From a virus, in IMG/VR virus record IMGVR_UViG_3300021142_000234, positions 1 through 20,412 of that record: a stretch of DNA of 20,412 nt; one strand, given 5' to 3'. Shown piece by piece: positions 1,200 through 20,410 of the stretch. The position numbers were made by a program, and so were the translations under genes. Position 1 is the first letter of the stretch. Each line of letters begins with the position of its first letter. Below the pieces are notes generated by a model. It did not search any database. It was given only the letters and a program-made list of their open reading frames with translations, and had not been told where the DNA came from.

Positions 1200-1212
1200 T
1201 GGTCCTTACTCC

Positions 1213-2501: not shown

Positions 2502-2520
2502 AATAAATCCCTCTGATAGA

Positions 2521-2543
2521 AAAGGGGGCTGATTTGCCCCCTT
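2521..2543 (-). terminator. Rho-independent terminator
   Basis: On the minus strand AAGGGGGC (2536-2543) pairs perfectly with GCCCCCTT (2522-2529) around a 6-base loop, and the U-run continues to 2520. It begins 16 bases after the stop codon of the gene at 2559-3152. It would separate or attenuate the scaffold transcript from the downstream small genes and capsid genes. Confidence 0.7.
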
Positions 2544-2558
2544 CTCAGTAGACCACAA

Positions 2559-4042: not shown

Positions 4043-4050
4043 TTTATACC

Positions 4051-4443: not shown

Positions 4444-4460
4444 ACTTTTCCCCTCTGTTT

Positions 4461-4667
4461 TTAACCAAGTTTTTGGGTAACTTCCTTCTCAGCTTCGTCG
4501 CACAATTCTAGTGCATCCCGAAGACCGAGAATGAAACCTGCATTGAATTGATAAGTTGGAAAATCGAAAACGCTATGACCTGTAACAAGGTTTTCTTTGC
4601 GTTGTTCTATCTCTCTCTCAATCATCTTCTTTAGTTCAACAATATAATATTCGTGTCTTGGCAACAT
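4461..4667 (-). CDS. Small helical phage protein
   Basis: 68 residues, MLPRHEYYIVELKKMIEREI..., with two predicted helices flanking a GHSVFDFPTYQFNAG turn and ending GLRDALELCDEAEKEV. A strong ribosome site (GAGGGGAG) lies eight bases before the ATG. It comes just before the co-chaperonin gene in the same operon. Similar short proteins occur near portal and scaffold genes in environmental phages; no function is known to me. Confidence 0.65.
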   Translation of the reverse strand: MLPRHEYYIVELKKMIEREIEQRKENLVTGHSVFDFPTYQFNAGFILGLRDALELCDEAEKEVTQKLG

Positions 4668-4715
4668 TAACCGCTCCCCTCAGCAGTTCCCTCTATTATT
4701 TGGTGGGACGGGATA

Positions 4716-4764
4716 TTAAAGAGGGGTTAATACCCCGCCCCTTTAACCACTCTACCGAAGAGTG
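4716..4764 (-). terminator. Tandem hairpins after the KxGG-repeat gene
   Basis: Two stem-loops follow the stop at 4766 on the minus strand. The first is a perfect 6-bp stem CACTCT/AGAGTG (4748-4764) with loop TCGGT. The second pairs TTAAAG (4741-4746) with CTTTAA (4716-4721) and GGGG (4733-4736) with CCCC (4723-4726), with a small internal bulge. No long U-run follows, so this may be a weak terminator or an mRNA processing/stability site. Confidence 0.45.
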
Positions 4765-4765
4765 A

Positions 4766-6322: not shown

Positions 6323-6367
6323 GGTTTGTTCCTTAGCTAAGAAATAACGAGCGTCCTCGTGATGTGC

Positions 6368-6394
6368 ATAATACACGAGAAAATATTCTTACAA
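6368..6394 (-). promoter_or_regulatory. Possible sigma70-type promoter
   Basis: On the minus strand TTGTAA (6389-6394) and TATTAT (6368-6373) are separated by 15 bases, upstream of the [KR]xGG gene. The 183-base gap 6323-6505 is very AT-rich and holds no other recognisable feature. The spacer is short, so this is tentative. Confidence 0.35.
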
Positions 6395-6505
6395 CAGAGG
6401 TATTTTATCCATGTTTTTAAATATATTCCCATTTGTAAGTGAGTTATTTTGGTTGTTTATAGCATAACTTATTGATATTATTTGATTCTTTATGTTTTTG
6501 TGCTG

Positions 6506-6955
6506 TTATTCTAAGTATTCATACATTGTTTTGAGTATTTGGGGGTATTTTGATGTGTCTGAACCTTGTTCAAAAAGATTTGCGGCTTCCATAAGTCTTA
6601 GGTCTTTAAGGTCACAATCGCTTAGGTAAATTCGTTCTTTGGTATTGGCATCGCATATTAATCCACTTTCCAGTCCATCTGGGCGGTTAATTCGAGAAAA
6701 CAAATATACAAGATATTCAGTCCTTGGGTTAAAGGTATTTGTTAAGGTTTCCCTGTCGCTATACTTTAGAGTTGAATAAGTAAATATATTTGTCCCATAA
6801 ATTGAATGTAAACCCCCAGCCAAACAAACAACTTCAGATACATTTGCTTTTTTGAGTATTTGATAAGTATTTAACAAATGGTCACCTAAAGATCTACCAC
6901 TGTGCTTTGTTTTAAAGCATCCAACATTTGTTAGGAATTGAATCAAATTGTTCAT
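6506..6955 (-). CDS. DUF6817-like (HD-type) protein
   Basis: 149 residues. The pattern HSGRSLGDHLLNTYQIL (18-34), then CLAGGLHSIYGT (44-55), then LRLMEAANLFEQ (119-130) matches what I remember of DUF6817: HSxRxLxDHLxxT, AGLxHSIYGT and the EAANLxEQ close. The paired His residues (H18, H26, H50) and D25 suggest an HD-like metal site. It overlaps the oxygenase gene by four bases (ATGA), so the two form one unit. Both are visibly more AT-rich than the flanking structural genes, suggesting an acquired cassette. The substrate is unknown. Confidence 0.68.
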   Translation of the reverse strand: MNNLIQFLTNVGCFKTKHSGRSLGDHLLNTYQILKKANVSEVVCLAGGLHSIYGTNIFTYSTLKYSDRETLTNTFNPRTEYLVYLFSRINRPDGLESGLICDANTKERIYLSDCDLKDLRLMEAANLFEQGSDTSKYPQILKTMYEYLE

Positions 6956-7533
6956 TCTATTCTAACCTTAATAACAAAAACCATTCTTGCTGCTGGGCAT
7001 AAACGGCTAACTGATCTACCAACATGCATCATAGCACTTGGGAAAACAACACATCTGCCAAATTTTGGAATAACAGCAGTTAATATTTCATCTTTATCAT
7101 CAAAAAACATAGTTTCGCCAAACCATTCTGTTTTCCAATTTTCATTTAAATATACAACAATAGTCATATCACTATCATTTTCACTATCGGTATGGGTATA
7201 TCCTTCCGTACCAAATGTGTATGCGTTAATATAACATCTAATAACCACAGAATCTTCAGGTATAACCTTTCCCCTTAATGCAGATATAATATTAATAACA
7301 ACAGTGGGTATTTTATCTTCAATATCTTCTCTATTGTCTTTGCCTACCTTTTCGAAACTTAAATTCCAATGCCCATAATCAATTTTGTTATGAGACTTCC
7401 AACCATAGGTAAAACCATGATTGTTTATGTATTGTATTAACTCTTTAAGTTTATCTATTTGAATTATATCATCATATTTTTTTATTAGAAGCATTTGTGA
7501 GATACTATCCAATAACCCCTCTTCAATGTCCAT
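6952..7533 (-). CDS. 2OG-Fe(II) dioxygenase, prolyl-hydroxylase type
   Basis: 193 residues. The iron-binding triad is visible as H114-T-D116 (YTHTDSEN) and H170 (FPSAMMHVGRSVS), with R183 (AARMVF) in the place that binds 2-oxoglutarate. The strand order INAYTFGTEGYTHTD, TIVVYLNENW, GETMFFDD, IPKFGRCVVFPS, HVGRSVS is the double-stranded beta-helix of prolyl 4-hydroxylase-like enzymes. These couple 2-oxoglutarate decarboxylation to hydroxylation of a substrate, often proline in a peptide. The ATG lies two bases after the stop of the Pro/Gly-repeat gene, with AAGGA inside that gene's end. AT-rich codon use differs from the neighbours. The substrate is not known. Confidence 0.82.
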   Translation of the reverse strand: MDIEEGLLDSISQMLLIKKYDDIIQIDKLKELIQYINNHGFTYGWKSHNKIDYGHWNLSFEKVGKDNREDIEDKIPTVVINIISALRGKVIPEDSVVIRCYINAYTFGTEGYTHTDSENDSDMTIVVYLNENWKTEWFGETMFFDDKDEILTAVIPKFGRCVVFPSAMMHVGRSVSRLCPAARMVFVIKVRIE

Positions 7534-7534
7534 A

Positions 7535-8926
7535 TTATGTCCTTCGTTTCGCAGTCATAAAAGCTTTACGTATTTCTTTTTTTAAATCATCTTGAGACAT
7601 CATTTCAATATGTTTATTCCAATTATGTTTTACACGAAATGCTTTGGGCCTACGGTTGGGGTTTGTAAAACGACCACCGGTATGTCCATCATCATCCCCA
7701 CCAGGGCTGCCCCCATCTGGTGTTCCTCCATCTGGTGTTCCTCCATCTGGTGTTCCTCCATCTGGTGTTCCTCCATCTGGTGTTCCTCCTCCCGGTGTCG
7801 CGCCATCGGGTGGTGTTCCGTCAGGTGTTGTGCCATCAGGGGGTGCCGAAGATGGACTTTCAGCTAATGATGCCGAATTAATACCAGCTTGTGCGGCAGC
7901 CAATGCGCTTGCTTCCGTTGAATCTGGTCCAAAACTTGATGCTAAGTCACCATATCCGCCTGGCAAGGATGATCCTATTACCGAACTATAATTGGGAGAA
8001 GCGGCAATATTAGGATCGCTCAATGCGTTTGCAATTGTTGCAAGAGCCGTGTTTTGATCAAATGCCTGTGCCATACTTAATGGATTACCGCGATCAGTAG
8101 CACCCATTGTTGGATCGCCGTGGTTTCCATAAGAACCAAAATTTGTGCTGGCGCTTGCTACAGGCGCACCCGGACCCTGCATAGCCCCCAAAGAAGCGTC
8201 ATTTTGTGATACGTCATTAGTTTCCAGTGGTCCGTTGGATGGAAAACCAAAGGAACCAATATTTGATGAACCCGTAGGACCACTTAAACCAAACGCACCA
8301 GAATTAGTTGCACCTAAAGCATCACTTACTGTCGATGTTGGTGTGGAGGACGAATTAGTTGTGCTACTATTCAATCCAGCTTGAATATCACCCATAAGTG
8401 CGGCTGATGCTGCGTTAGTATCTTGTATATCAGCACCTAATTGATCTGACATTCCAGCATGTGAAGTTGAGGATGATGGGGTAGAACTTGTAGTTGTAGA
8501 AGTCGGTGCATTTGAATAACTAGCTACAGTTCCAACATTTGTTGGGGTGCTAGGTTCCGATGGTCCAACTAATGTAGATCCAATTGTAGGTCCGCCTAAT
8601 AAACCAGATACTGTATTTGCGGCACTTATTCCCATTCCAATAGGGCCAAGCGCACTAAGAGCAATCCCAGCGCCGATATTAGTTGCCGTCTGGCCTGGGT
8701 TGGCAATAGCATTGTCTATTGGGCCAAAACCAGTTGGTGACGTTGAATTATCAGATGTTGAAGGAGCGGGCGATGCGGAAGAACCATCCGCTCCACCGCC
8801 ACCATCTTGGGGTATAGGCAACCCAGTCACAGGATCAATTTTTACAGGTTGGCCGCCATCCGCAAATTTTCGACGCGCAAACTTCCTTGCGGTCATAATT
8901 GCGTTTCTGATGGCTTTATCACTCAT
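7535..8926 (-). CDS. Large disordered Ser/Thr/Pro/Gly-rich virion-like protein
   Basis: 463 residues. A basic N-terminus (MSDKAIRNAIMTARKFARRK, then FADGG) is followed by over 350 residues of Ser, Thr, Asn, Gly, Pro and Ala with one hydrophobic stretch (about 82-116, GAGIALSALGPIGMGISAAN). A tandem repeat of GTPDG (about residues 380-405) comes next, then a basic C-terminus (LKKEIRKAFMTAKRRT). The two ends share an IRxAxMTA[RK] motif. It overlaps the preceding gene by four bases (ATGA) and lies two genes after portal, where minor or internal virion proteins are common. No enzyme domain is visible. The hydrophobic glycine-rich stretch could interact with membranes during DNA delivery, as inference. 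Confidence 0.72.
   Translation of the reverse strand: MSDKAIRNAIMTARKFARRKFADGGQPVKIDPVTGLPIPQDGGGGADGSSASPAPSTSDNSTSPTGFGPIDNAIANPGQTATNIGAGIALSALGPIGMGISAANTVSGLLGGPTIGSTLVGPSEPSTPTNVGTVASYSNAPTSTTTSSTPSSSTSHAGMSDQLGADIQDTNAASAALMGDIQAGLNSSTTNSSSTPTSTVSDALGATNSGAFGLSGPTGSSNIGSFGFPSNGPLETNDVSQNDASLGAMQGPGAPVASASTNFGSYGNHGDPTMGATDRGNPLSMAQAFDQNTALATIANALSDPNIAASPNYSSVIGSSLPGGYGDLASSFGPDSTEASALAAAQAGINSASLAESPSSAPPDGTTPDGTPPDGATPGGGTPDGGTPDGGTPDGGTPDGGTPDGGSPGGDDDGHTGGRFTNPNRRPKAFRVKHNWNKHIEMMSQDDLKKEIRKAFMTAKRRT
7714..7788. repeat. Five exact 15-bp tandem repeats
   Basis: The unit CATCTGGTGTTCCTC occurs five times without a mismatch at 7714, 7729, 7744, 7759 and 7774, with degenerate units on both sides. 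On the minus strand it encodes GTPDG repeats of the large disordered protein. Exact DNA identity suggests recent expansion, so copy number may vary between phage isolates. Confidence 0.9.
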
Positions 8927-10062
8927 TGGTGTTTATGGCCCAAAAGATGACTAATCAAGCTAAGGGCATGGTGAAGAGGGTCATGTTTCTTTTCTTTAAC
9001 CGCACCACCACGTTTATGGCCATTATCAAACGTGTCATCTGCGTTGTTAGCGACGTAATTAGGGTCCATCTTTTGCAAAGCTTGGCTGGCGCGAAAAAAA
9101 TCTGCCGCGCTATCATTGTTCCCCCAATTAATATCAGTAGGGTCTTTTGAACCTTTTGGTGCAACTAATTGATTATTTGATTGGTAATTATCACCGCTAA
9201 ATAAACGAGAGAAAAATCCAGGCTGGGAAGCAGCCGCTGGACCAGAAGTTGGCCTAGTTGGAGGCGTTGGAACATTATTGCGATTTGCCCAAATATCTTG
9301 TTTTGCGGTTGGTGTAGTTGTTGATGCAAGTGCCTGACGAGGCGAATTTAAAACCTGCAATGCCTGTGTTTTGGCATTTTGTATATTAACTGGTGAATAG
9401 TTTGATGCCGCAACTGGTTTAAATTGATCGGAATCATCAGTATTTTCCAAATTATATCCATATCCTGTTGATTTAGCATTAGGATCTGTTGGATACATAA
9501 ATGGTGTTCCAGCACGATAGCCTGTCATTTGCTGTTCATCAACGGCATTACGAGAAAGCGCTTGATTGGCTGCTGCTTGCCGCGCTATATTTACAGCTAA
9601 ATTACTTGGAGATAAATCATATTGTGATCTTAATTCTTCATCCGAAAGACCATATTCTGGCAACATTGACATTTGTTGATTACGTAATGTTGGGTCAGTA
9701 ATTTGTGATACTGTTGAATAATTTAGCTGAGGATTTGTTGATGATAAACGATTATACCAACCAGTTGCATCGCTGACGGGTGGTTGTGAAGTATTAAGAA
9801 GGTTTATTAAGTTTTTTTCCTCATCAATTTCCGCTTGCGTAGTGACGTGACCCTGCTGTGGATTTCTTAATTGTTGTAGTCTTTGAAAGTCTTCTTTCCT
9901 AAATTGTGGTTGTGGAACAACTGGCACATCTCCACTTTTTTGCAAGGCAATTATCATAGCTTTATTCAGCATATCATTTTGACCACTTGTATTATCAAAT
10001 GTTTCTAATGATTGCCTTAAACCTAGAATTCTTTGACGACGTTGATCAGCTGTTTCAACCAT
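8923..10062 (-). CDS. Gln/Asn-rich virion-associated protein of unknown function
   Basis: 379 residues, hydrophilic and rich in Gln, Asn, Pro and Ser (RLQQLRNPQQG, SRNAVDEQQMTG). A short conserved-looking piece reads PGFFSRLFSGDNY (about 280). The C-terminus is His/Lys-rich and includes KRGGAVKEKKHDPLHHALSLISHLLGHKHQ in two parts: the KRGG motif shared with the 4766-6322 protein, then a basic amphipathic helix with six His. It starts 11 bases after the portal gene and ends in an ATGA overlap with the next gene. Position suggests a portal-associated or internal virion protein. No family recognised. Confidence 0.68.
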   Translation of the reverse strand: MVETADQRRQRILGLRQSLETFDNTSGQNDMLNKAMIIALQKSGDVPVVPQPQFRKEDFQRLQQLRNPQQGHVTTQAEIDEEKNLINLLNTSQPPVSDATGWYNRLSSTNPQLNYSTVSQITDPTLRNQQMSMLPEYGLSDEELRSQYDLSPSNLAVNIARQAAANQALSRNAVDEQQMTGYRAGTPFMYPTDPNAKSTGYGYNLENTDDSDQFKPVAASNYSPVNIQNAKTQALQVLNSPRQALASTTTPTAKQDIWANRNNVPTPPTRPTSGPAAASQPGFFSRLFSGDNYQSNNQLVAPKGSKDPTDINWGNNDSAADFFRASQALQKMDPNYVANNADDTFDNGHKRGGAVKEKKHDPLHHALSLISHLLGHKHQ

Positions 10063-10072
10063 CTGCCTGTTC

Positions 10073-12385
10073 CTACTCTATCGGTTGCGCCGAACCAGGT
10101 GTTATTGGGTTTTCATTTCCCTCTAAGCGCTGTAACAATCCTGGTTCAAGGATACTGCGCGCAATAGCCAAGCCTTGTGGGTCTTTTGCCATATCTTCTG
10201 CAAACTTAACTGCCGCCAACCGCTCATCGCTTTCACGATCACGCTTGCGGTTTGTCGCTTCAAGCAACATTTGCTGGCGTTCCATGTCAATTTCTTTAAG
10301 CTTAATCATGTTAGCCATCATTTGCGGGTCCATTTGACCGCCTTGTTGGCCAGGCTGTGGTTGTTGCATCTTAGCATGTAACTCCATAGCTTTTGCCTGA
10401 TCAAGCATAGCTTTAGCGTCGGCAATTTTCTTCTCGTTTGCAATTTTGGCTTGGATTTGTTGCAATTCTGGAGGAGGCTGTTGTTGTGCGGATGGAGGTG
10501 CCATAAACTGCTGAGGATTACCCCAACCAATGGCTTGCATCGCCGCAATATCAATCGCAATTGGGTCATACATTGATGGATTACCAGCCTGAAGCTGCTT
10601 CAATGCCGCAACCTTCATCAATCGTTGTGTTTGCGAAGCTGTGTTTGGATCGGCTTGCGGTGTTAATTCGCAATCTTCCAATGCTTGCAGGAATGTATCC
10701 TCATCCCATTGATATGCTGGCTTACGATTACGTTGCCAGAAGCTTTCTGGGTGTTCTTTAAAACACTGAACAAGTAATCTAAACTCTTCGGCTTGAGCAG
10801 CGTGCATACGTTTGTGGACGCTGTTCATAATCTTGGTGGCTTGTTCGATAGAAGCCAGGGTTGTGCCAACTGGTGTTTCAGTTACACCTTCACCAACAGC
10901 TTGCTCCGATGTCCCACCCAAGCGTTGGCCCGTTTCAACAATGTTCTGAACAAGATTCATCAGGGCAGCTGATGGTTCTTTGTACGGCAGCGGCATGATG
11001 GCTTGATTGATTGGCATACCACCCGTTTTCACAGGCGCACCACCGCCAGGAGGCACACGGAAGATGTTTGTATTCTGACGCATACCAACGTCAGCAAACA
11101 GGAAGCCTGGGAAGTTGCTGTACATACCAGCATCGAGCAATTCACGCCATGCAGCGGTCACTGCATTTGTTGTATTACCGAGTATGTGTAGCAAACCAAT
11201 ATCGTAAAAACCCATGCCAGGAACAAACGTATACTTCGCGAAACATTGCCGTGCTTCTGGTAGGTCTTTTGTATCTTCATCGTAATTTCGAACCACTGAA
11301 AGAATTTGTTTCGACGATACGTCGATTGTGACGCGATATGGAACTTCTAAACCAGTCTCTTTACCCTTGTAGGTATGTTCAAAACCGCGAATATCTAATT
11401 CACAATAAATCTCGTAAATCTCACGATCACGATCTTCTGGCTTTAGAATGTTATCTTCAATGCCTTGCTGAGTTTTCTTTTCACGCTGCAAGCTATCAAG
11501 TTTAGCAGGTAAAGGGGTTGGCAAATCAATGTCTTTATAAACGCCAAGAATTTGTAAACGGCGCACAGTCGAAGGCCGCATGAAAGTGCGATGCGTAATA
11601 CGTTTTGCATTGCGTAAATCCGTAGCAGAATTATTAACAATCAAGTCATCAGCATCCACAGTCTCAGAAACTGGGCGATTACGCAATGGGCAGAAGTAAA
11701 CTTTTTTAAATGCCGTTCCGCCAAAACCAAGCATAAGCAACATGCGGTCGGTATCAGGATAATATTCAGATGCTGTGCTGGTGAGGTAATGGTTTAAATC
11801 CCGCTCCAGCGCATTAGCCATCTGGTCTTCTTGCAGCGTGGCGTTGTTATTGTCGTTGCGGATCTTAACTGGGCCGTCTGTGGGCAGCATTTCCGAACGT
11901 GCATTAGCTTGAAAACGTAACACAGCCTCAAGCAGCAATGGATGGCGCACACGGCTCATGCCTTCAACTGGCGCACCTTCTGCTGATCCGCCAAGACCAG
12001 GAATCTCGATCTTAAGACCAAGAAGCTTTAAGCCAAGCGCACGATCTTCGACCCAATCCTTGCGGCTATTGATGTCGGCTTCCACACCAGATAAAAGTTC
12101 GCTGGAAATTCTGTTAAGTTCCATCTCGTCAATTTGATCGACGAGGTTATCGAACCACTCTCCGCCTTTTTCTTCCCTGTCTGCATTTAATGGCTTCCCA
12201 TCCAAAGAGATTGTGACCGACCCATCTGGGTGTTCAATCTTTAAAATATTGCCCGAATCATCAAATTGCGGCGCATCCGCATTGTCATCGGTAACTTCAA
12301 CGATAAAATCAGACGGAGCAATAGCAGAATCGTCTTGTGGGCCGTCTTGACGTATGGATGGTGATAAACCAGGTGTTAAAGGCAT
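10073..12385 (-). CDS. Portal protein
   Basis: 770 residues, right after TerL and one small gene, where the portal is expected. Recognisable segments include SRVRHPLLLEAVLRFQANAR (144-163), where the N-terminal wing begins, then RMLLMLGFGGTAFKKVYF (214-231) and the YDIGLLHILGNTTNAVTAAWRELLDAGM helix. A long stem and crown follow, with a Gln-rich coiled coil from about 613 (PPPELQQIQAKIANEKK...). The length is above that of small siphovirus portals and near that of the P22-type group. The protein forms the dodecameric ring through which DNA enters and leaves the head and on which TerL docks. TAAGGA precedes the ATG, which overlaps the upstream gene by ten bases. Confidence 0.85.
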   Translation of the reverse strand: MPLTPGLSPSIRQDGPQDDSAIAPSDFIVEVTDDNADAPQFDDSGNILKIEHPDGSVTISLDGKPLNADREEKGGEWFDNLVDQIDEMELNRISSELLSGVEADINSRKDWVEDRALGLKLLGLKIEIPGLGGSAEGAPVEGMSRVRHPLLLEAVLRFQANARSEMLPTDGPVKIRNDNNNATLQEDQMANALERDLNHYLTSTASEYYPDTDRMLLMLGFGGTAFKKVYFCPLRNRPVSETVDADDLIVNNSATDLRNAKRITHRTFMRPSTVRRLQILGVYKDIDLPTPLPAKLDSLQREKKTQQGIEDNILKPEDRDREIYEIYCELDIRGFEHTYKGKETGLEVPYRVTIDVSSKQILSVVRNYDEDTKDLPEARQCFAKYTFVPGMGFYDIGLLHILGNTTNAVTAAWRELLDAGMYSNFPGFLFADVGMRQNTNIFRVPPGGGAPVKTGGMPINQAIMPLPYKEPSAALMNLVQNIVETGQRLGGTSEQAVGEGVTETPVGTTLASIEQATKIMNSVHKRMHAAQAEEFRLLVQCFKEHPESFWQRNRKPAYQWDEDTFLQALEDCELTPQADPNTASQTQRLMKVAALKQLQAGNPSMYDPIAIDIAAMQAIGWGNPQQFMAPPSAQQQPPPELQQIQAKIANEKKIADAKAMLDQAKAMELHAKMQQPQPGQQGGQMDPQMMANMIKLKEIDMERQQMLLEATNRKRDRESDERLAAVKFAEDMAKDPQGLAIARSILEPGLLQRLEGNENPITPGSAQPIE

Positions 12386-12597
12386 ATTGTTTTCCTTACG
12401 GCTTCGTCCTTGGTTTCCATTTCATAGACAAAACGGCGAATACCCTCTTGAGCCGCCAATGTATCACTTTTTGCATCAATCGTATAGGTGCGAACAAAAT
12501 CATAAGGCTCCTCACCCCATACTTCCACGCGATAAAGATTCTCCCCTTTGGTGGCAGACTCGCGCAATATATCAACAATAGCCTTAGCTTTAACCAC
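12376..12597 (-). CDS. Small conserved phage protein before portal
   Basis: 73 residues, starting with GTG at 12595-12597 after a strong AAGGAGAG ribosome site. The sequence KAIVDILRESATKG...YRVEVWGEEPYDFVRTYTIDAKSDTLAAQEGIRRFVYEME predicts a helix, three strands and a helix. It sits between TerL and portal and overlaps the portal start by ten bases. Similar small proteins are common at this place in environmental phages, and I know no function for them. Confidence 0.7.
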   Translation of the reverse strand: MVKAKAIVDILRESATKGENLYRVEVWGEEPYDFVRTYTIDAKSDTLAAQEGIRRFVYEMETKDEAVRKTICL

Positions 12598-12639
12598 AGC
12601 TCTCTCCTTTTGGGGTAGTTTGGCAATAATAACAGAAAA

Positions 12640-14346
12640 CTACGCTGGGTAAAGCGGTTCTATCTTATCGTTGTACAATTGAGGCACGTCATCATAGGCT
12701 TTGCTCTCGTCCACACGCTGCAACAGACCAATTTGACGCAAATGACGTATTGCCATGCTTACTGTATCGACCAAATCGTCATGCTTGGCTTTTGGAAAGG
12801 CAGCAACTTGGTCAATAACCATGCGTGACCATGCTTTATCAGGCGCATAAATCAATCCATCAGCAAATAAATGCTGAATGGAGTAGAGTCGGGCTAGTTT
12901 ATCGGTTCCTTTAGGGTCATCTAGCTGCACAGCCCACTTTTCGTGGTTGTATAAACGCCGTAATTCTTGCGCCACACTGTATCCAGCCGCTTTATTCTCG
13001 ACTAAAACCTTATCTACCTTCAATTTTTTCATAGTTTCGGCAACTTTTGTCACCAATTCATGCAATTCAAGCTTGGCTTGCCATGCATACATCATCATAA
13101 CCTTGGCATGACGTTCCCCAAAGAAGCGATTTACCTCTAATTGCTGTGTTACAAATGATCCGTCGCCATCTTCCATCAAAACATCGACCACAACGCCGTC
13201 ACGAGTAATTTGTTTTGGTGCTGGAGCGGCGGTTTCTTGCGAAAATACGCCCCAAACTGTCATGGCGCTAAAGTCATTTTCCTGTTTTGTCGTGTATGCC
13301 GTATCCAAAGCAGCGACAATAAAGTCCATTGGAGGATATGCAGCCGCTTCCCACGGTTCCCACCATTCAACTTTGATTACACCACCGCCTTTAACTTCTG
13401 GACGCTGCTGTAATTGACCCGCTGTCGCCCAAGGACCAAGTTGTTTTTCTAGTGTCTGCACTTCCAACTCGCCAAATCGCTCTGGCCAAAGCAATTCATC
13501 CTCTTCTGTGCGAGGATCTTGCCATAAAACAGCCTCGCCATCGTCTGATTTATCAACTGGAACAAGCACGGTATGAAAAGAACGATGCGGTTCATACTTC
13601 ATTGGCAGCATTAAATGCGTCCAATTACCTACATCTTTCTCCAAGATATGACCCGTAAGGTCGTTTTCGGCGAGTCTTTGCTGGATGATGACGAAACAAC
13701 CTGTTTTTGGGTCGTTGAGACGGGTTGAAAGGGCAGAATCCCACCATTCAATTGTTTCGTGGATTTTTGCTTCTGAGAATGCTTCCTGTGCTGCGTTAGG
13801 ATCGTCAACGATGATGATTGATCCGCCTTCACCCGTAAGCGCAGAGCCAACCGATGTAGCAAGTCTCGAACCTCTTTTATCATTATCGAACCTTGTTTTA
13901 GTGTTTTGGTCCCCAACCAGATGGAAGCGTTCGCCCCAACGCTTCTGAAACCATTGAGATTCAATCAAGCGGCGGCATTTTACCGAATCACGCAACGACA
14001 ATTGTTGGGCATATGACGCTGTCAAAAATTGAACACCTGGCCCAGATGTTGGAGTTGGTGTTTGTTGCGTCCATGTCCACGCTGGAAAGGCACAAGAAAC
14101 CAGTGATGACTTAGCGCAGCGAGGTGGGATGTTGATGATCAAGCGCCGAATGTGGCCGTCTGTGACCGCCATAAGGTGTTTAGCAACAGCCTCAATAGGC
14201 CAGCCAGGGGTAAAGGGTGAAGCGTCTAAATATTTCCATCCCCTGCGTAAAAAAGTGTACAGATCGTCTTCGCATTCTTGCCTATCCATCGCCAATAAAT
14301 AATCTTGCGAATTAATCCGCTTGCCTTCGTGCTGTATAATGGCCAT
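12640..14346 (-). CDS. terL: Terminase large subunit
   Basis: 568 residues. The ATPase half has an adenine-binding/Walker A region with the deviant P-loop NIPPRCAKSSL (72-82), a motor segment FLTASYAQQLSLRDS, and Walker B SIIIVDDP (176-183). The nuclease half has an RNase H-like fold with acidic residues D348 (AALDTAY), E450 (VLVENKAAG) and D523/D524 (KHDDLVDTVSMAI). The enzyme cuts concatemeric DNA and pumps it into the prohead through the portal. The length is normal and both domains are intact. It starts with a one-base TAATG overlap with the gene before it. No small subunit is identified with confidence nearby. Confidence 0.93.
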   Translation of the reverse strand: MAIIQHEGKRINSQDYLLAMDRQECEDDLYTFLRRGWKYLDASPFTPGWPIEAVAKHLMAVTDGHIRRLIINIPPRCAKSSLVSCAFPAWTWTQQTPTPTSGPGVQFLTASYAQQLSLRDSVKCRRLIESQWFQKRWGERFHLVGDQNTKTRFDNDKRGSRLATSVGSALTGEGGSIIIVDDPNAAQEAFSEAKIHETIEWWDSALSTRLNDPKTGCFVIIQQRLAENDLTGHILEKDVGNWTHLMLPMKYEPHRSFHTVLVPVDKSDDGEAVLWQDPRTEEDELLWPERFGELEVQTLEKQLGPWATAGQLQQRPEVKGGGVIKVEWWEPWEAAAYPPMDFIVAALDTAYTTKQENDFSAMTVWGVFSQETAAPAPKQITRDGVVVDVLMEDGDGSFVTQQLEVNRFFGERHAKVMMMYAWQAKLELHELVTKVAETMKKLKVDKVLVENKAAGYSVAQELRRLYNHEKWAVQLDDPKGTDKLARLYSIQHLFADGLIYAPDKAWSRMVIDQVAAFPKAKHDDLVDTVSMAIRHLRQIGLLQRVDESKAYDDVPQLYNDKIEPLYPA

Positions 14347-14570
14347 TAGACCCTAACCTTTGCAAAGGAAACGTATTTTTCGCCAGTCTTTTTATCCTGA
14401 TAACAGTTAAATATAGCCATGTTTTTGTGGGCGGGGTTGTTTGAATAAATCAAATCCCCACCTGGTTCCTCATAGCAATACCCATAATGGTTATCCATTT
14501 CCTTTCGGCGCAGATAACCATAAGTATAATGCCAACCTTGGCTAATAAACTTATCGTTTGAATAACTCAC
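14346..14570 (-). CDS. Small Tyr-rich phage protein
   Basis: 74 residues from GTG 14568-14570 (VSYSNDKFISQGWHYTYGYL), chosen for GGAG eight bases upstream; an ATG at 14591 would add seven residues but lacks a good ribosome site. It is rich in Tyr and Asn (HYGYCYEEPGGDLIYSNN, MAIFNCYQDKKTGEKYVSF) and probably folds as a small beta sheet. It overlaps the preceding gene by 20 bases and TerL by one base. Function unknown. Confidence 0.6.
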   Translation of the reverse strand: MSYSNDKFISQGWHYTYGYLRRKEMDNHYGYCYEEPGGDLIYSNNPAHKNMAIFNCYQDKKTGEKYVSFAKVRV

Positions 14571-14835
14571 GCGATTTCTCCAGAACCTCATTGATGTGTT
14601 TATCCAAGTCTTCTTGTGTTATAGGTGTTAATTGCATCATGTTAGCACGAAACATATCTTTTAAAATCTTTATCTGATGGTGAGCCATTTGGATGTTGGC
14701 ATCGTATACATCCCCCGCCTTGCGCCAGATGGCCTGAACCTCGGCTGGCAATTCTTCCCAAGCTGGCGGCTTAATGTCGATCAATTTGGTGTTTTCGCAA
14801 TAAACTGCGTACATATTTTTAGCTAATTCATCCAT
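14551..14835 (-). CDS. Small helical phage protein, two genes before terL
   Basis: 94 residues from ATG 14833-14835 (MDELAKNMYAVYCENTK). The frame is open to 14997, but the longer product would lie almost wholly inside the nuclease gene. This start gives an eight-base ATGGATGA overlap, like other junctions here. It contains PPAWEELPAEVQAIWRKAGDVYDAN, then a long helix (HHQIKILKDMFRANM) and an acidic helical end. Position would allow a small terminase subunit, but no helix-turn-helix is clear, so I leave it unassigned. Confidence 0.6.
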   Translation of the reverse strand: MDELAKNMYAVYCENTKLIDIKPPAWEELPAEVQAIWRKAGDVYDANIQMAHHQIKILKDMFRANMMQLTPITQEDLDKHINEVLEKSRELFKR

Positions 14836-15304
14836 TGGTTTTTTCCCATCTTTTGAGTTGATCTTGGGTAAGGACGTATGTTTTTCCATGTCCAAGATCG
14901 GAGATGTTTTCTGGTTTGGTAAAATTCTCTTTTTCAATCCAGCCAGGAAACGTGACAGTATTACCATCCAATATTGCCAAGACATATATATCAACATCTT
15001 GGTTTTCTTTCAATGTTTTAATAAGTCGGCCATTTTTGACCCTTGTTGTCTTTACATCAATTCTTTTACCCCGAATCATGCAGTCAAAACTTCCAGATCT
15101 GATTGAAAGATCTACGGACATGAAGATATTGTGATATTTGCAAAAAGCATATTCGCCAATCACGCCGTCTTGATCAATATCAAATTTTCCTTGTTTGCCC
15201 ACTTGAGTGTCGGTAACAAAGTTAGATCGGCAAGCTATATGCCGCATATTACCTATCATTTGGCAGACAGCTAGTTCGCTATCGGTCAGCTGAACTGAGA
15301 ACAT
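14828..15304 (-). CDS. PD-(D/E)XK-like nuclease
   Basis: 158 residues. The core reads DGVIGEYAFCKY (46-57), then SFDCMIRGKRIDVKTTR (72-88), then DIYVLAILDGNTVTFPGWI. This gives the E51 helix, D74, and D83-x-K85 in an IDVKTT strand, the arrangement of the PD-(D/E)XK fold (restriction endonuclease-like). The N-terminus (LTDSELAVCQMIGNMRH) resembles related phage nucleases. Such enzymes cut DNA during recombination, repair or host DNA breakdown. It lies upstream of the packaging genes and overlaps genes on both sides. Its DNA target cannot be read from the sequence. Confidence 0.65.
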   Translation of the reverse strand: MFSVQLTDSELAVCQMIGNMRHIACRSNFVTDTQVGKQGKFDIDQDGVIGEYAFCKYHNIFMSVDLSIRSGSFDCMIRGKRIDVKTTRVKNGRLIKTLKENQDVDIYVLAILDGNTVTFPGWIEKENFTKPENISDLGHGKTYVLTQDQLKRWEKTNG

Positions 15305-15524
15305 TAGCCTTTTCCTTAATAGCTTCTACTTCTTCCTCAGAAAGATAGTAGCGCATGGTTATCTCAAATGAATTGACTAACTGTTTCCAGCTTTCTTCTT
15401 CACCATCTGCCATGACGATCAATCCTTTGGAAATCCCCCTTACCAAGGATATGTAATCGGCAGCTAAAATATTCTGCACCAATTCATCAGTCGTGCTATG
15501 GCTAAGTTTCAGCGCATGTTTCAT
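15279..15524 (-). CDS. Small acidic helical protein
   Basis: 81 residues (MKHALKLSHSTTDELVQNIL...MRYYLSEEEVEAIKEKANVL), mostly helical. It begins within the ATGA overlap at the end of the preceding gene and overlaps the nuclease gene by 26 bases, so translation is tightly coupled. No domain recognised. Confidence 0.65.
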   Translation of the reverse strand: MKHALKLSHSTTDELVQNILAADYISLVRGISKGLIVMADGEEESWKQLVNSFEITMRYYLSEEEVEAIKEKANVLSSADR

Positions 15525-15826
15525 GCTGCACCTTCAAGCACCACAAAATCTTGTTTGCGGCGTTTGCCAGTAATGTTCACAGCAAAATACTGAAAACAAT
15601 TTTTACCCTTACGTTTCTGCACAAGGGCAATCCTGCCGCGATTCATTTCGTTCCAAAGGACATCGGCTGCGTTGCTGATATTAGAATTAAATTCACGTGC
15701 CTTTGCTAACTCACCATGGCAATAGCAATATACGCTTCCGTATTGCGCATTTTGCAACCACACAAGCACATCTTCAACTTTTGCGCTAAATCCGACTGGG
15801 ACAGTTGTTTCATATTGGATGGACAT
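15521..15826 (-). CDS. Small phage protein, possible winged-helix-like fold
   Basis: 101 residues from ATG 15824-15826 (MSIQYETTVPVGFSAKVEDV), selected for TGAGGT just upstream; the frame is open to 15889 inside the previous gene. The C-terminal half (AADVLWNEMNRGRIALVQKRKGKNCFQYFAVN) has the helix, then Gly-turn, then basic beta-wing look seen in winged-helix DNA-binding proteins, but this is a weak resemblance. Function unknown. Confidence 0.62.
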   Translation of the reverse strand: MSIQYETTVPVGFSAKVEDVLVWLQNAQYGSVYCYCHGELAKAREFNSNISNAADVLWNEMNRGRIALVQKRKGKNCFQYFAVNITGKRRKQDFVVLEGAA

Positions 15827-15833
15827 ATTTACC

Positions 15834-16016
15834 TCAGATTGATTTACGTTGTGAAAGTGGGTTGTAAGGTGGTTTGGAGGTTTTTTCATATTCTTTTATA
15901 ATTTTTCTCAGACGTTCAATTTCATCAGCGGCAACATGGTTAACCAAACCAATCTCGCCATTGGGTAATTTCATAGAAACATCGGCTTGCCGAAGGTGTT
16001 TGACAATATCAGACAT
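15834..16016 (-). CDS. Small coiled-coil phage protein
   Basis: 60 residues (MSDIVKHLRQADVSMKL...HVAADEIERLRKIIKEYEK). The AADEIERLR helix is a common feature of short phage proteins of unknown role, and resembles the helices at 16813-16992, 17186-17404 and 17404-17646 here. The ATG lies one base after the preceding stop, and the gene ends seven bases before the next ATG. Confidence 0.6.
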   Translation of the reverse strand: MSDIVKHLRQADVSMKLPNGEIGLVNHVAADEIERLRKIIKEYEKTSKPPYNPLSQRKSI

Positions 16017-16017
16017 A

Positions 16018-16542
16018 TTATTTTTCTTTCACTAGATCACGCAGTTTCATAATTTCTTGTATAGCTTCATCAAACAGTTCTTCTGGTTGATAGTATTTTT
16101 TTGCATGATCAAGCTTCACAATAATGTCACCATTATCACGTTCTTCTTTCATCATTTTTAATTCTTCTATGGTATAGTCAAATTTGAAATGATACGGATT
16201 GTGATCGGATAATTGCATCCATTCTTCTGATGTTTGCGGTTCATCAAAATATCTAACAGCCTTAGTTTCTTTGTTTATGTAGGAATACTTAAGCTTTGCA
16301 TCTGGTTGAAATGCGTTTGGTAATCCCTGACCCTTATAACCAATGGCAGGGTCTTTATTCGGAATCATCTTACCCTTGCGTTCGGATGGTAAGATTAGAT
16401 TATTGTTGTAGGTTATATCTCTTAAATCCCTAAGTCCCATAATGGCAAAAGCCATATGAATTGGTTTTTCTGGGGGAGTTGGTTTTCTAACCCCAATCCA
16501 GATAAGAAACTTATGCCAAGAATTTTTGATTTGATTAAACAT
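16018..16542 (-). CDS. Hypothetical phage protein
   Basis: 174 residues, first gene after the structured intergenic region. AGAGGT lies ahead of the ATG at 16540-16542. The N-terminus is basic with tryptophans (MFNQIKNSWHKFLIWIGVRK) but too short and polar for a clear membrane anchor. The middle has SDHNPYHFKFDYTIEELKMMKEERDNGD, and the end is helical (EELFDEAIQEIMKLRDLVKEK). No family recognised. Confidence 0.68.
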   Translation of the reverse strand: MFNQIKNSWHKFLIWIGVRKPTPPEKPIHMAFAIMGLRDLRDITYNNNLILPSERKGKMIPNKDPAIGYKGQGLPNAFQPDAKLKYSYINKETKAVRYFDEPQTSEEWMQLSDHNPYHFKFDYTIEELKMMKEERDNGDIIVKLDHAKKYYQPEELFDEAIQEIMKLRDLVKEK

Positions 16543-16632
16543 AAAAATTACCTCTAATGCTTAGATTAACACAAGCATTACAACAGTCAAACAAAAGTTG
16601 ACAGAATAGTGTAATTTATTGAGAAACTAAAG

Positions 16633-16663
16633 GGGTGGCTGGCTATCGAGGAACCAACCACCC
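16633..16663 (-). terminator. Hairpin terminator of the small-gene cassette
   Basis: On the minus strand GGGTGGTTGG (16654-16663) pairs with CCAGCCACCC (16633-16642) over 10 bp with one G-U pair and an 11-base loop, followed by CTTTAGTTTC. A second 7-bp stem, GTAAGCA/TGCTTAC, lies at 16670-16692. The U-run is broken, so termination may be partial. Confidence 0.5.
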
Positions 16664-16788
16664 AAGTTTGTAAGCACTACCACAATGCTTACTTACAGCC
16701 CGTTATCGACCATGCGCCTGGTTTGGATAACAGGTCTGGTGGCTAACCTGCACATCATCCTCTACATTGATGACATGCGCACATAACA

Positions 16789-16816
16789 AATCTACCATAC
16801 CAGCGATAAGTGTCAA
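16789..16816 (-). promoter_or_regulatory. Sigma70-type promoter with extended -10
   Basis: On the minus strand a perfect TTGACA (16811-16816) is followed after 16 bases by TAGATT (16789-16794), with TGG directly before it forming an extended -10. The -35 overlaps the TGA stop of the gene at 16813-16992. It points towards the gene at 16018-16542, some 240 bases away, giving a long structured leader. Confidence 0.55.
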
Positions 16817-16992
16817 CTCATCTTTAGCAAAGCTTTATATTTCTCTTTTAGATCATTAATCTCATTTTCTAACTTTTCAATGTAATCCGCCGCTTCTAAT
16901 AGAACATCAGGATCGGGAGGCACCTCACCCCACCCATAAGCGAACATATCTTCCGCACTTCCACGAAGGTATTTTTTAATATCTTTTTCCAT
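16813..16992 (-). CDS. Small coiled-coil phage protein
   Basis: 59 residues from ATG 16990-16992, in a TGATG overlap with the DUF551-like gene; a GTG one codon earlier is possible. The sequence has DMFAYGWGEVPPDPDVLLEAADYIEKLENEINDLKEKYKALL: a short Trp/Pro loop, then a leucine-rich coiled coil. It is the last gene of the cassette before the terminator hairpin. Function unknown. Confidence 0.6.
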   Translation of the reverse strand: MEKDIKKYLRGSAEDMFAYGWGEVPPDPDVLLEAADYIEKLENEINDLKEKYKALLKMS

Positions 16993-17186
16993 CACTCATT
17001 CTCTTTCGGTGGTTTAGGCATATCCATCCAGTGGGTTGGCTCAACTTGATAACCAGTGGGGGTTACCCATCCATATTCTCCATCTCTAATTGGACACCAG
17101 CCCATCATGCCAACCCAACGTCCATCCGTACCTAAAATATCAAATGGGGTTTTTGGTGCTGTTTCTATTGGTTTCCATTCAGCCAT
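16992..17186 (-). CDS. DUF551-like protein (copy 1)
   Basis: 64 residues. It begins MAEWKPIETAPKTPFDILG and ends PTHWMDMPKPPKENE. The opening W-x-PIETAPK and the closing THWM-x-x-P-x-PP are the marks of DUF551, short proteins common in phages and prophages with no assigned function. A paralogue lies at 17896-18096 and shares the same ends but a different middle. TAATG and TGATG overlaps join it to both neighbours. Confidence 0.7.
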   Translation of the reverse strand: MAEWKPIETAPKTPFDILGTDGRWVGMMGWCPIRDGEYGWVTPTGYQVEPTHWMDMPKPPKENE

Positions 17187-17404
17187 TACTTATTATCCTC
17201 TAATGCGGTGCGAGCTATTTCAGCACATTTGCAAACAAACCCGCAGTCAACTTTTACAACTTCTCTTAATGCTGCTTCCAGCTGCTCAATGCGGTCGGCG
17301 GCTTCTTTGCGTTCAGTCTCATAAACTTTCATTTGATGCTGAATGTCTTCCCTAACATTCACAGAAAAATCTTCATTGAGCCGTTTCACAAGATCGTCAG
17401 TCAT
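17186..17404 (-). CDS. Small coiled-coil protein (AADRIEQL copy 1)
   Basis: 72 residues (MTDDLVKRLNEDFSVNV...KEAADRIEQLEAALREVV), with two cysteines near the end (CGFVCKCAEIA). The ATG at 17402-17404 lies in a TGATG overlap; GTG at 17407 is an alternative start. The AADRIEQLxxAL helix is repeated in the next gene upstream, suggesting duplication inside the cassette. Confidence 0.62.
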   Translation of the reverse strand: MTDDLVKRLNEDFSVNVREDIQHQMKVYETERKEAADRIEQLEAALREVVKVDCGFVCKCAEIARTALEDNK

Positions 17405-17646
17405 CACTTATCCCCGTTTATCGCAGCTACAGACCACCAACCACACATCATATGAGGCATATCACCCTCACGTTCTTTTTCAGCTTTATACAATGCACAT
17501 GGTTCGGTGCATTTACAACTATACTTACTTAAAGCATTGCTAAGCTGTTCTATTCGGTCGGCGGCCTGTTTGCGCTGCTCAATAGCTAATTCAATTTCCC
17601 AATCGTGAAGTTCTTGTCGCAATTGTCCAACAAAATTGTCAACCAT
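17404..17646 (-). CDS. Small coiled-coil Cys-bearing protein (AADRIEQL copy 2)
   Basis: 80 residues (MVDNFVGQLRQELHDWEIEL...KQAADRIEQLSNALSKYSCKC...). AAAGGAG precedes the ATG at 17644-17646. A C-x-C-x3-C pattern (CKCTEPC) and a later CGWWS follow the helix, so a small metal site is possible. It is a likely paralogue of the gene at 17186-17404. Confidence 0.62.
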   Translation of the reverse strand: MVDNFVGQLRQELHDWEIELAIEQRKQAADRIEQLSNALSKYSCKCTEPCALYKAEKEREGDMPHMMCGWWSVAAINGDK

Positions 17647-17722
17647 TATTTAATCTCCTTTAACGCAGCGTAAGCATAATCTTGCATCATTCTGATTTGC
17701 TCATGTGGGTCGTCGATTTTTT
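17646..17722 (-). other. Candidate -1 frameshift site and C-terminal extension
   Basis: At the A6 run on the minus strand (17717-17722) the -1 frame continues IDDPHEQIRMMQDYAYAALK plus EIK for 23 codons. It stops with TAA at 17646-17648, which overlaps the next ATG as TAATG, the junction style used throughout the cassette. In this frame the nearest upstream stop (TGA 17724-17726) lies just before the A6 run, so the switch must happen at or after the run. Either programmed slippage or a missing A in this homopolymer would explain it. Confidence 0.6.
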
Positions 17723-17896
17723 CTCATAACCAAACACATCCATTTTTATATCGCCATTTTTAATTTGCTGATATAAATTAAATCCAAAATACTGCGTCCA
17801 TCCTGGACCTTCAGCGACCAAACACATACTTTTCCCATAATAAATATGCCAATCTCCCAATGGCATGGCCCTCCAATAAAATTTAGATTTATCCAT
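17687..17896 (-). CDS. Small Trp/Tyr-rich protein, probably frameshifted near its end
   Basis: 69 residues in the uninterrupted frame (MDKSKFYWRAMPLGDWHIYYG...GPGWTQYFGFNLYQQIKNGD...). The last nine residues (STTHMSKSE) look like read-through of a wrong frame. After a -1 shift at A6 (17717-17722) the protein would be about 83 residues and end exactly at the next start codon. The start overlaps the preceding DUF551-like stop as TGATG. No family recognised. Confidence 0.62.
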   Translation of the reverse strand: MDKSKFYWRAMPLGDWHIYYGKSMCLVAEGPGWTQYFGFNLYQQIKNGDIKMDVFGYEKKSTTHMSKSE

Positions 17897-18096
17897 CAGT
17901 CAGTCTCTTTCGGTGGTTTGGGTAAAAGCATCCAGTGAGTAGCCTCATAATGTACAGATGAGGAGCAGCATCCGCAGCCATTGTGTTTTGGATACATTTC
18001 AAATTCTGTTTCAACCAGCCAAATATCTTTTCCATCCCAAACAAGGATTTCTGAATCTTTTGGTGCGGTTTCTATTGGCTGCCAGTCAGTCATCAT
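17896..18096 (-). CDS. DUF551-like protein (copy 2)
   Basis: 66 residues. It begins MMTDWQPIETAPKDSEILVWDG and ends ATHWMLLPKPPKETD, with a Cys cluster (CGCC) in the middle. It is a paralogue of the gene at 16992-17186. It is the first gene of the leftward cassette; GAGAGGGGA precedes the two adjacent ATG codons (18096 or 18093). The middle differs from its paralogue, so the two diverged long ago or were gained separately. Confidence 0.7.
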   Translation of the reverse strand: MMTDWQPIETAPKDSEILVWDGKDIWLVETEFEMYPKHNGCGCCSSSVHYEATHWMLLPKPPKETD

Positions 18097-18120
18097 TCAT
18101 TCCCCTCTCTCTATCTGTAG

Positions 18121-18153
18121 GTTGACATTATCATAGATATTGGGGTTGTCAAC
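18121..18153. repeat. Inverted repeat GTTGACA / TGTCAAC
   Basis: GTTGACA (18121-18127) and TGTCAAC (18147-18153) face each other 19 bases apart, just upstream of the leftward cassette. They could be half-sites of an operator, or back-to-back -35 elements. On the minus strand GATAAT (18127-18132) follows TTGACA after 14 bases, a spacer that is too short for a good promoter. Confidence 0.5.
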
Positions 18154-18241
18154 TTATTAAGCTTGGCAATAGTAATTTATTTTTTGGGTGGGATGTATTG
18201 CCCTACAAAATGAAAATATGTTGGGTAATAGCTTGGCAATT

Positions 18242-18274
18242 GGTGTGTACATGGTGTGTACATGTTGTGTATAT
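18242..18274 (+). repeat. Three 11-bp iterons
   Basis: GGTGTGTACAT occurs twice exactly (18242-18252, 18253-18263), then as GTTGTGTATAT (18264-18274). The 11-bp period keeps all three copies on nearly the same face of the helix. The third copy contains TGTGTATAT, one base from a DnaA box on the opposite strand. Confidence 0.75.
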
Positions 18275-18275
18275 A

Positions 18276-18348
18276 GGTTGACAGTTATTTGGAAAATTTT
18301 ACCCAAATATCGGGGAGGTGGGTTGACACTTGTTTTGAAAATTTTACC
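18276..18348 (+). repeat. Pair of 28-bp direct repeats
   Basis: Copies at 18276-18303 and 18321-18348 match at 25 of 28 positions. Each starts GGTTGACA and ends GAAAATTTTACC, so it contains a consensus -35 hexamer and an AAAATTTT palindrome. No matching TATAAT lies 16-18 bases after the TTGACA, so a protein-binding site is likelier than a plain sigma70 promoter. Confidence 0.7.
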
Positions 18349-18422
18349 ATTTTTACGTGGGGGCTAAATCATCATTACCATCGGCTATAGGGGGGTGTAT
18401 AGGGGGGCAACAGCCAAGCCGA

Positions 18423-18451
18423 ACAGAACGGGAACAGAATATATTCCTATC
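18423..18451 (+). repeat. Direct repeat left of parS
   Basis: This copy (ACAGAACGGGAACAGAA, then TATATTCCTAT) matches 18526-18553 at about 24 of 29 positions. It ends 30 bases before parS. Confidence 0.6.
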
Positions 18452-18481
18452 CTAGGCGCGCAGTCCTAAATAGCCAAGCCG

Positions 18482-18497
18482 TGTTTCACGTGAAACA
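18482..18497. promoter_or_regulatory. Perfect parS centromere site
   Basis: TGTTTCACGTGAAACA is a perfect 16-bp palindrome and identical to the chromosomal parS consensus bound by ParB/Spo0J; the Caulobacter form has exactly these bases. ParB loads here as a CTP-dependent clamp and, with ParA, segregates the replicon. It lies in the repeat-rich non-coding region with near-symmetric direct repeats on both sides. No parA or parB is in this window. Confidence 0.8.
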
Positions 18498-18525
18498 ATA
18501 TAGCCATGCTTCATGGTCAGGGAGA

Positions 18526-18553
18526 ACAAAACGTGAACGGATTATATTCCTAC
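18526..18553 (+). repeat. Direct repeat right of parS
   Basis: This copy (ACAAAACGTGAACGGAT, then TATATTCCTAC) starts 28 bases after parS. It contains ACGTGAAC, which resembles a parS half-site and recurs at 18659-18666. Confidence 0.6.
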
Positions 18554-18886
18554 CGCCTATTGTTAAGCTGTATGGTTATGGTTGACAATGCACCTTGGCA
18601 ATGTCACGGGATTGCTCAAGTATAAAGCCAAGCTAATTGCCACGCTGGGTTGGACATAACGTGAACAATGTTCATGATTTGTTCTTGTTTTGTTCTATTG
18701 CTGGAACGGAACGGAAACAGAACGTGTCTGGCGTTCTCGGTTTAATCCTAAACAATATTGAGGCGCATTGAGTGCCATAAGCCAACCTATCCGCTACCTA
18801 CGCTAGTCTTATTGCCAAGCCTAGTCATGATCGCTTTGTATTGCTATGGTTATGCGCGCGCGTGAGGGGGGCGGAAAGAAGGGGTT

Positions 18887-18895
18887 TGTGAATAA
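18887..18895 (-). promoter_or_regulatory. DnaA box next to an AT-rich tract
   Basis: TTATTCACA on the minus strand fits the DnaA box consensus TTWTNCACA at every position. It touches an AT-rich tract (about 18891-18940, with runs of A) that could serve as the unwinding element. A GCGCGCGCG run lies at about 18854. A single box is weak evidence alone, but its setting supports it. Confidence 0.5.
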
Positions 18896-18924
18896 AAATA
18901 ATCCCCAAAATAAAAAAAATCGTT

Positions 18925-18953
18925 TGCATTAAATAGCAATTCGCGGCATTATC
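18925..18953 (+). promoter_or_regulatory. Possible promoter for the rightward genes
   Basis: TTGCAT and CATTAT are 17 bases apart, some 70-95 bases before the ATG at 19020. Each hexamer has several mismatches to consensus, so this is only a candidate. Confidence 0.3.
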
Positions 18954-19019
18954 AGAGTGTGAGGCGCAAGTGATTTGCCTAGCAACACAAGGCCTTAGCA
19001 ATTAGATGGAGATTGAGAC

Positions 19020-19783: not shown

Positions 19784-20410
19784 TTAAGCCGATAGGTTAT
19801 TCTTGCCCGCGCCATGCACTTCAATTGCTATGCTCTTAGCCTTTATTGCTGAACCTTTGCATAATCCGCAATCCGCGCACTGTATGCCTCGGCTTGATGG
19901 GCAAGCAATCTCATTGTCCTTATCTAATTCATTATAAGACTTAACTACGCGAAACGTGCGCACACCATTGCGCCATGCCGATTGCGCTTCAATTATACTT
20001 TCGACCGATTGCATCATAAGCTTAGCATTAAAAGCCGATTGTGTTTGCTTTGCTTGGTGTGAATAGCCAGTGTAAGACTTTGCACGGCTTAAAAGGCTTT
20101 CCCAAACGTATGACGGCACGGCAGCAGGATCACCATAGGTGCCAAGACGCACCATTGCGCCTGCACCTAAGCTTGCTATTGCTTCATGGCTTTGTGCAAT
20201 AGGATAGCCGCCTCTTTGTAAGTGCTTCCAAACAATAGTCGGGCCTTGGCCTAAAAGAACGTAACATGTGCGATTCTTGGCTTGCTTGGCACTTGCGTCA
20301 TCTGTTGCATTGCCACGCATAGGACAATCTCCGCATATTGCAAAGTCTAAGCCTTGTTTACTTGCTTGCAATGGCGAAATATCTGAGCGGATAATGTATG
20401 TTTGCACCAT
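19784..20410 (-). CDS. Cysteine-rich conserved phage protein
   Basis: 208 residues from ATG 20408-20410, two bases from the window edge, so a longer N-terminus cannot be ruled out. Conserved-looking parts are ICGDCPMR (C26-x2-C29), CYVLLGQGP (C49), VRLGTYGDPAAVPSYVW, YTGYSHQ and ACPSSRGIQCADCGLCKG (C170, C178, C181, C184). Similar proteins are widespread in phages; I recall them under a DUF label (DUF7227), from memory only. The cysteine pattern suggests a zinc or iron-sulphur site. It is the only leftward gene right of the origin-like region and has its own terminator. Confidence 0.7.
   Translation of the reverse strand: MVQTYIIRSDISPLQASKQGLDFAICGDCPMRGNATDDASAKQAKNRTCYVLLGQGPTIVWKHLQRGGYPIAQSHEAIASLGAGAMVRLGTYGDPAAVPSYVWESLLSRAKSYTGYSHQAKQTQSAFNAKLMMQSVESIIEAQSAWRNGVRTFRVVKSYNELDKDNEIACPSSRGIQCADCGLCKGSAIKAKSIAIEVHGAGKNNLSA

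Follow-up and report, generated by a model that had tools for sequence, protein, structure and literature searches.

We found that a virus fragment of 20,412 bases (hereafter the window, i.e., the whole stretch of DNA that was analyzed) carries at positions 18482–18497 a perfect 16-bp palindrome, TGTTTCACGTGAAACA, which matches the ParB/Spo0J consensus and is probably an orphan chromosome-type parS with no ParB of the phage's own, an assignment that rests on its relatives, the window being a fragment. ParB dimers load at parS sites, close with CTP, slide and spread along the DNA, recruit SMC and interact with ParA. We predict from the sequence that the ParB of the host very likely binds the phage site.

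A chromosome-type parS palindrome in an intergenic gap

The palindrome is present in a single copy, with no second TGTTTCACGTGAAACA-like site at up to three mismatches elsewhere in the 20,412 bases, and an exact copy is expected about 5e-6 times in 20.4 kb of uniform bases (20412/4^16). The initial annotation, which had claimed both an exact match to the host-type ParB site and the improbability of such a match by chance, holds on both counts, the second being strengthened by a control palindrome and by conservation (see below), which is stronger evidence against chance than the p-value. Its description of the sequence as a phage genome is right as to the phage origin of the DNA, but the window is only a 20.4-kb piece, the relatives being about 52–62 kb long. 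The site is intergenic and lies in a 923-bp (0.92 kb) noncoding gap that separates the early genes from the terL/portal/capsid module. The principal features are as follows:

285–1199, major head protein, left of the gap
10073–12385, minus strand, portal protein of the SU10 type, left of the gap
12640–14346, minus strand, terminase large subunit (TerL), the marker gene for finding relatives
18097–19019, no strand, noncoding gap with the site; leftward small genes and the terL module on one side, rightward small ORFs on the other
18482–18497, no strand, parS-type site TGTTTCACGTGAAACA, with exact copies in L202, L203 and the sister clade
19784–20410, minus strand, DUF7227/phrog_2554 protein, probably starting past the window end

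To the right of the gap are two small rightward ORFs followed by the DUF7227/phrog_2554 gene, and the gap region aligns with that of L290, another member of the window's clade, over about 1.1 kb at a mean column identity of 91%. A promoter scan of the gap was uninformative, with four promoters against 3.3 expected. We also considered a replication origin, as the GC skew changes sign near the gap, but the skew largely tracks gene direction in a 57.9-kb relative, and we therefore make no origin claim. The structural genes of the window additionally include, all on the minus strand, a GroES-like co-chaperonin (4051–4443), a DUF6817 protein (6506–6955), a 2OG-Fe(II) oxygenase (6952–7533) and a protein with a run of GTPDG repeats, a collagen-like low-complexity stretch (7535–8926).

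Conservation of the site in related phages

Relatives were collected by comparison of TerL and of the DUF7227 protein. The exact TGTTTCACGTGAAACA is kept in L202 and L203, two close relatives that were found by their DUF7227 proteins at 96% and 93% identity, respectively, and in L203 one flank has been replaced with the 16 bases of the site unchanged. Phages of the window's own clade have one copy each, and those of a sister clade, whose TerL is about 60–65% identical, have two to four exact copies along with center variants (L133, L136, L137, L139, L142, L143, L146 and L147). In the long sister-clade records the sites are restricted to the interval between the small terminase subunit (TerS) gene and the TerL gene. 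The 57.9-kb relative G014 has three exact copies and one near copy, all within 309–569, and no further parS-type site outside this segment. Both position and sequence are thus kept across clades at this level of TerL divergence, with the flanking DNA differing. The site is thus present in related phages (L202, L203, the sister clade and G014), whose lack of it the initial annotation would have counted against its reading; of the further parS sites that it proposed to look for, none is found elsewhere in the window, and sister-clade phages have several in the interval homologous to the gap region.

On the TerL tree, several deep forks of which are poorly resolved, the presence of the site is clustered in the window's clade, in a 12-row clade whose members all have sites or variants and in one more small group that has a variant, and rows lacking a site stand between these groups. 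Many of the TerL relatives have no site at all, which indicates that it is not essential to this type of phage.

The TerS–TerL interval and phased GAACA repeats

Both the window's clade and the main sister clade have their sites between TerS and TerL. In L136, TerS spans 2138–2833 and the first site begins at 2846, 13 bp past the TerS stop; in G014, whose TerS was assigned by phrog_1482 and Sf6_terminase, a site at 554–569 abuts the TerS stop codon at 570; and in the window's clade, TerS is farther away, beyond DUF7227 (3749–4297 in L290), and the site is in the gap on the TerL side. Most of these phages also feature, in the same interval, GAACA repeats at an exact 11-bp spacing, which in the window take the following forms:

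18421–18436, plus strand, a pair of GAACA repeats spaced by 11 bp, GAACAGAACGGGAACA
18524–18540, plus strand, GAACAAAACGTGAACGG, a degenerate pair of the GAACA repeat to the right of the parS-type site, recognized from sequence
18669–18695, minus strand, a GAACA array of three units spaced by exactly 11 bp, putative TerS/pac or iteron sites

The gap contains three same-strand 11-bp GAACA pairs, against 0.0015 expected from dinucleotide shuffles, and a single such pair occurs in positions 1–18096. Arrays of at least three repeats are found only in site-bearing loci among the relatives, i.e., the window, L136 (2873–2899), L137 (4915–5098), L203 and G014 (239–423 of L285); the L142–L147 group displays sites without GAACA arrays, and its sites shortly precede genes. 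The repeats could plausibly serve as a TerS-binding (pac) site, or possibly as an iteron array. A separate observation concerns a tRNA-Gln gene (3294–3384 in L136; 763–853 in L133): a variant parS (TGTTTCACGGGAAACA / TGTTTCCCGTGAAACA) is only 1 bp away from its 5′ end.

Being close to TerS, the sites may also influence packaging or neighboring genes. As an explanation in its own right, host ParB would be recruited for packaging or gene control, with clamps beside TerS and the GAACA arrays marking, protecting or insulating the pac region or damping transcription until late infection. This could account for the placement of the sites in the TerS–TerL interval, such as those next to TerS in G014 and L136, for the arrays in the same interval being confined to site-bearing loci, and for the sites that closely precede genes in L142–L147. 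We nevertheless consider it unlikely: the pac role of the arrays is only putative, the L142–L147 group has sites without an array and, to our knowledge, no mechanism by which ParB acts on packaging has been described.

The presence of several copies in each sister-clade genome, which would be multiplied by phage replication, could alternatively indicate a decoy that pulls ParB off the host origin and disturbs segregation or division to the benefit of the phage, much as the parS-like sites of SGI1 destabilize its helper plasmid (PMC10954446). This appears improbable, given that phages of the window's clade have just one copy; hosts themselves often have only one to three sites, yet their ParB is probably not limiting.

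Partition and integration genes

The initial annotation had allowed for segregation by a ParB encoded either by the host or by the phage itself, as a plasmid-like prophage, or for the drawing of host ParB to the phage DNA, and had proposed a search for parA and parB. We found no ParB_N domain in G014, despite its length of 57.9 kb and three exact sites, nor in the other site-bearing relatives tested among 15 viral records related through TerL or DUF7227; the sole match in this set is a weak, sub-threshold one in G001, which has no site. Neither a ParA-type ATPase nor a tyrosine integrase was detected in 17 related records, G014 included. No partition operon was seen among the scanned part of the relatives' proteins, and neither G014 nor any other tested relative with a site has parAB genes next to it. 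Of the options in the initial annotation, the phage's own ParB and the plasmid-like prophage are therefore not borne out, nor is an integrated prophage, and the drawing of host ParB is the best reading of the sequence. A host-type site combined with no ParB in the site-bearing relatives examined suggests that the phage probably borrows the segregation protein of its host.

It is conceivable that the site is instead the operator or centromere of the phage's own ParB or of another DNA-binding protein, as in the partition of phage-plasmids. The window being a fragment, a ParB gene could lie in the unseen part of this phage's genome, L290 encodes a YdaS/Cro-type HTH protein, and phage ParB/parS systems have been discussed for extrachromosomal mycobacterial prophages (PMC7157519). 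Nonetheless, G014 is devoid of ParB_N, ParA and tyrosine integrase, and an identity with host parS that extends to its variants is unexpected for a private operator, which together make this a very improbable explanation.

Center variants shared with chromosomal parS sites

The central four bases of the sites in the related phages are ACGT in 30, ACGG in six and ACAT in four cases. The general form TGTTTCNNNNGAAACA is present in 62 of 76 Alphaproteobacterial genomes, often as only one to three sites per genome; among the matches listed, the ACGT center predominates, and both ACAT and ACGG also occur. With gene names read from ORF sequences, such sites lie beside rsmG-parA-parB in G122 (ACAT and ACGT) and G088 (ACGT), beside mnmG-rsmG-parA-parB in G143 (ATGT and ACGT), beside mnmG in G077 (ACGT) and G137 (ACAT), and beside smr and hslUV in G106 (ACGG). 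Gel shifts with the ParB of Hyphomonas neptunium used exactly the 16-mer TGTTTCACGTGAAACA (PMC6650430), which is also listed as the Hyphomonas parS, and the parS of Thermus thermophilus, TGTTTCCCGTGAAACA, is the ACGG variant read on its other strand (PMC7022226). The phage sites hence share the identical 16-mer and the same central variants with the chromosomal parS of Alphaproteobacteria such as Hyphomonas neptunium and Caulobacter (PMC6650430, PMC7022226), but differ in lying in the TerS–TerL interval without parA or parB. That they obey the sequence rules of chromosomal parS, exceptions included, suggests that host ParB is the protein that reads them.

These variants also bear on an RNA hairpin or terminator with a conserved TGTTTC/GAAACA stem and a four-base loop, which would explain why changes fall mostly in the central four bases. 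However, no site among the matches at up to two mismatches has two arm changes (e.g., compensatory pairs), the sole arm variant, TGTTTCACGTAAAACA of G014, breaks a pair, and the site is absent from terminator-like matches. The missing arm covariation and the occurrence of the same central variants in chromosomal sites beside parAB rule out this reading, to which we attach hardly any credence.

The site is also far more frequent than expected: the 905 kb of sequence from relatives should contain TGTTTCNNNNGAAACA 0.05 times but has it dozens of times, and at least 120 IMG/VR contigs have the exact site, against three with a palindrome of equal base composition. A neutral relic of captured host DNA or a chance match, which would suit the one copy in the window, is thus of negligible probability in view of this enrichment and of a position and sequence kept across clades while the flanks differ, chance itself being ruled out by the conservation and the control palindrome.

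Probable Alphaproteobacterial hosts

GcrA is an Alphaproteobacterial regulator. We found it encoded by six relatives (G014, at 17291–17761 of L285, G010, G018, G020, G030 and G032), including all five of those tested that exceed 50 kb; a control set gave matches in Caulobacter and, oddly, Sulfolobus. Its presence in near-complete relatives indicates Alphaproteobacterial hosts and suggests that these phages exert cell-cycle control through a GcrA-family regulator. Among NNnNN palindromes, none is more depleted in the window than GANTC (31 against 58.8 expected), which ranks second in L290 (14 against 40.5); this is compatible with a host of the CcrM type. CCNGG is likewise strongly under-represented in both the window and L290 (3 against 23.5 in the latter); the scarcity of both motifs suggests that the phages avoid sites of host methylation or restriction. 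Two bins, Rhodospirillales G077 and Alphaproteobacteria G079, contain TerL relatives and carry the identical 16-mer as a chromosomal site. TerL relatives also sit in MAG bins of several phyla, with no site on those contigs, and bins alone were for this reason not used to assign the host. From the relatives, the host of the window's phage is probably Alphaproteobacterial.

A predicted loan of the host segregation machinery

Taken as a whole, we favor, as rather more probable than its rivals together, the explanation that the palindrome is a functional orphan parS, bound by host ParB, through which the phage hitch-hikes on host segregation or positioning. On infection, the chromosomal ParB of the host, Alphaproteobacterial as judged from the relatives, would bind the palindrome, close into a CTP-loaded clamp and spread along the adjacent phage DNA; its potential downstream partners are the ParA, SMC and polar anchors of the host. 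The predicted benefit would be that, during delayed lysis, the phage genome, although unintegrated, stays with the daughter cells or at the cell pole, rather than replication or lysis as such; we know of no lysogeny or carrier state in this phage group. A more far-reaching version, which we regard as doubtful, is that ParB clamps at parS act on the packaging-start region with its 11-bp phased GAACA repeats and tie packaging or delayed lysis to the host centromere and cell cycle, orphan host-type parS sites being more broadly a common and overlooked device of lytic-type phages. The GcrA of the relatives is noted alongside this coupling of packaging to the cell cycle.

Orphan parS sites in other phages and their precedents

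In an annotated phage collection, 315 records, many of them near-copies of one another, match a parS-centered query, against four for a scrambled control palindrome. The site-bearing phages infect Listeria, Microbacterium, Arthrobacter, Gordonia, Bacillus, Lactobacillus and Ruegeria, and also include small inoviruses and microviruses; a ParB_N gene is absent from all nine of the site-bearing records that were examined. Orphan host-type parS in phages hence looks like a widespread pattern. Individual cases with an exact parS, often intergenic, and no ParB_N are Gordonia phage Woes, Listeria phage P100plus, Lactobacillus phage Bacchae, Bacillus phage vB_BcoS-136, Ruegeria phage DSS3P8 and Arthrobacter phage Huntingdon. 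The 6.2-kb inovirus L309 (PQ006097.1, bajarodino virus 3), also without ParB_N, has six exact sites (704, 740, 3041, 3583, 4380 and 5921).

The virulent Bacillus phage phi29 is reported (Meijer et al., EMBO J 2005) to engage host Spo0J (ParB) via parS sites, reportedly for entry into spores. The system predicted here is alike in that host ParB would be engaged through parS, and the phi29 relative B103 has one exact site and no ParB_N; it differs in that the phage is unrelated, the site is located differently and Alphaproteobacteria are not known to form endospores. Extrachromosomal mycobacterial prophages, likewise phages with centromere sites, are said to have their own partition proteins and replication system; they bring these proteins along, whereas no ParB or ParA is found in the relatives of the present phage group. 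What would be expected of parasitism on host ParB, a host-type parS without an own ParB, is found here, the second part as read from the relatives. Another close precedent is SGI1, which hijacks the ParABS of IncC plasmids: in both, a mobile element has orphan parS or parS-like sites that are read, here by prediction, by the ParB of another replicon for its own stability, but SGI1 pairs an integrative element with a plasmid ParB and the present case a phage with a chromosomal one (PMC10954446). We found no papers on host-type parS in phages in a search that covered a minority of subscription journals. Two things appear new: a phage lineage in which a putative orphan parS of the chromosomal type is accompanied by GAACA repeats phased at 11 bp, and evidence for a wide occurrence in phages of such sites, for which ParB binding and function are predicted.

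If true, phages outside spore-formers that are free of partition genes would plug into host chromosome segregation via 16 bp. This would offer testable ideas on the inheritance or positioning of unintegrated phage genomes and on possible causes of altered phage outcomes in ParB or SMC mutants. The enrichment across cultured phages of many hosts makes it testable in Bacillus phage B103, Gordonia phage Woes and Ruegeria phage DSS3P8.
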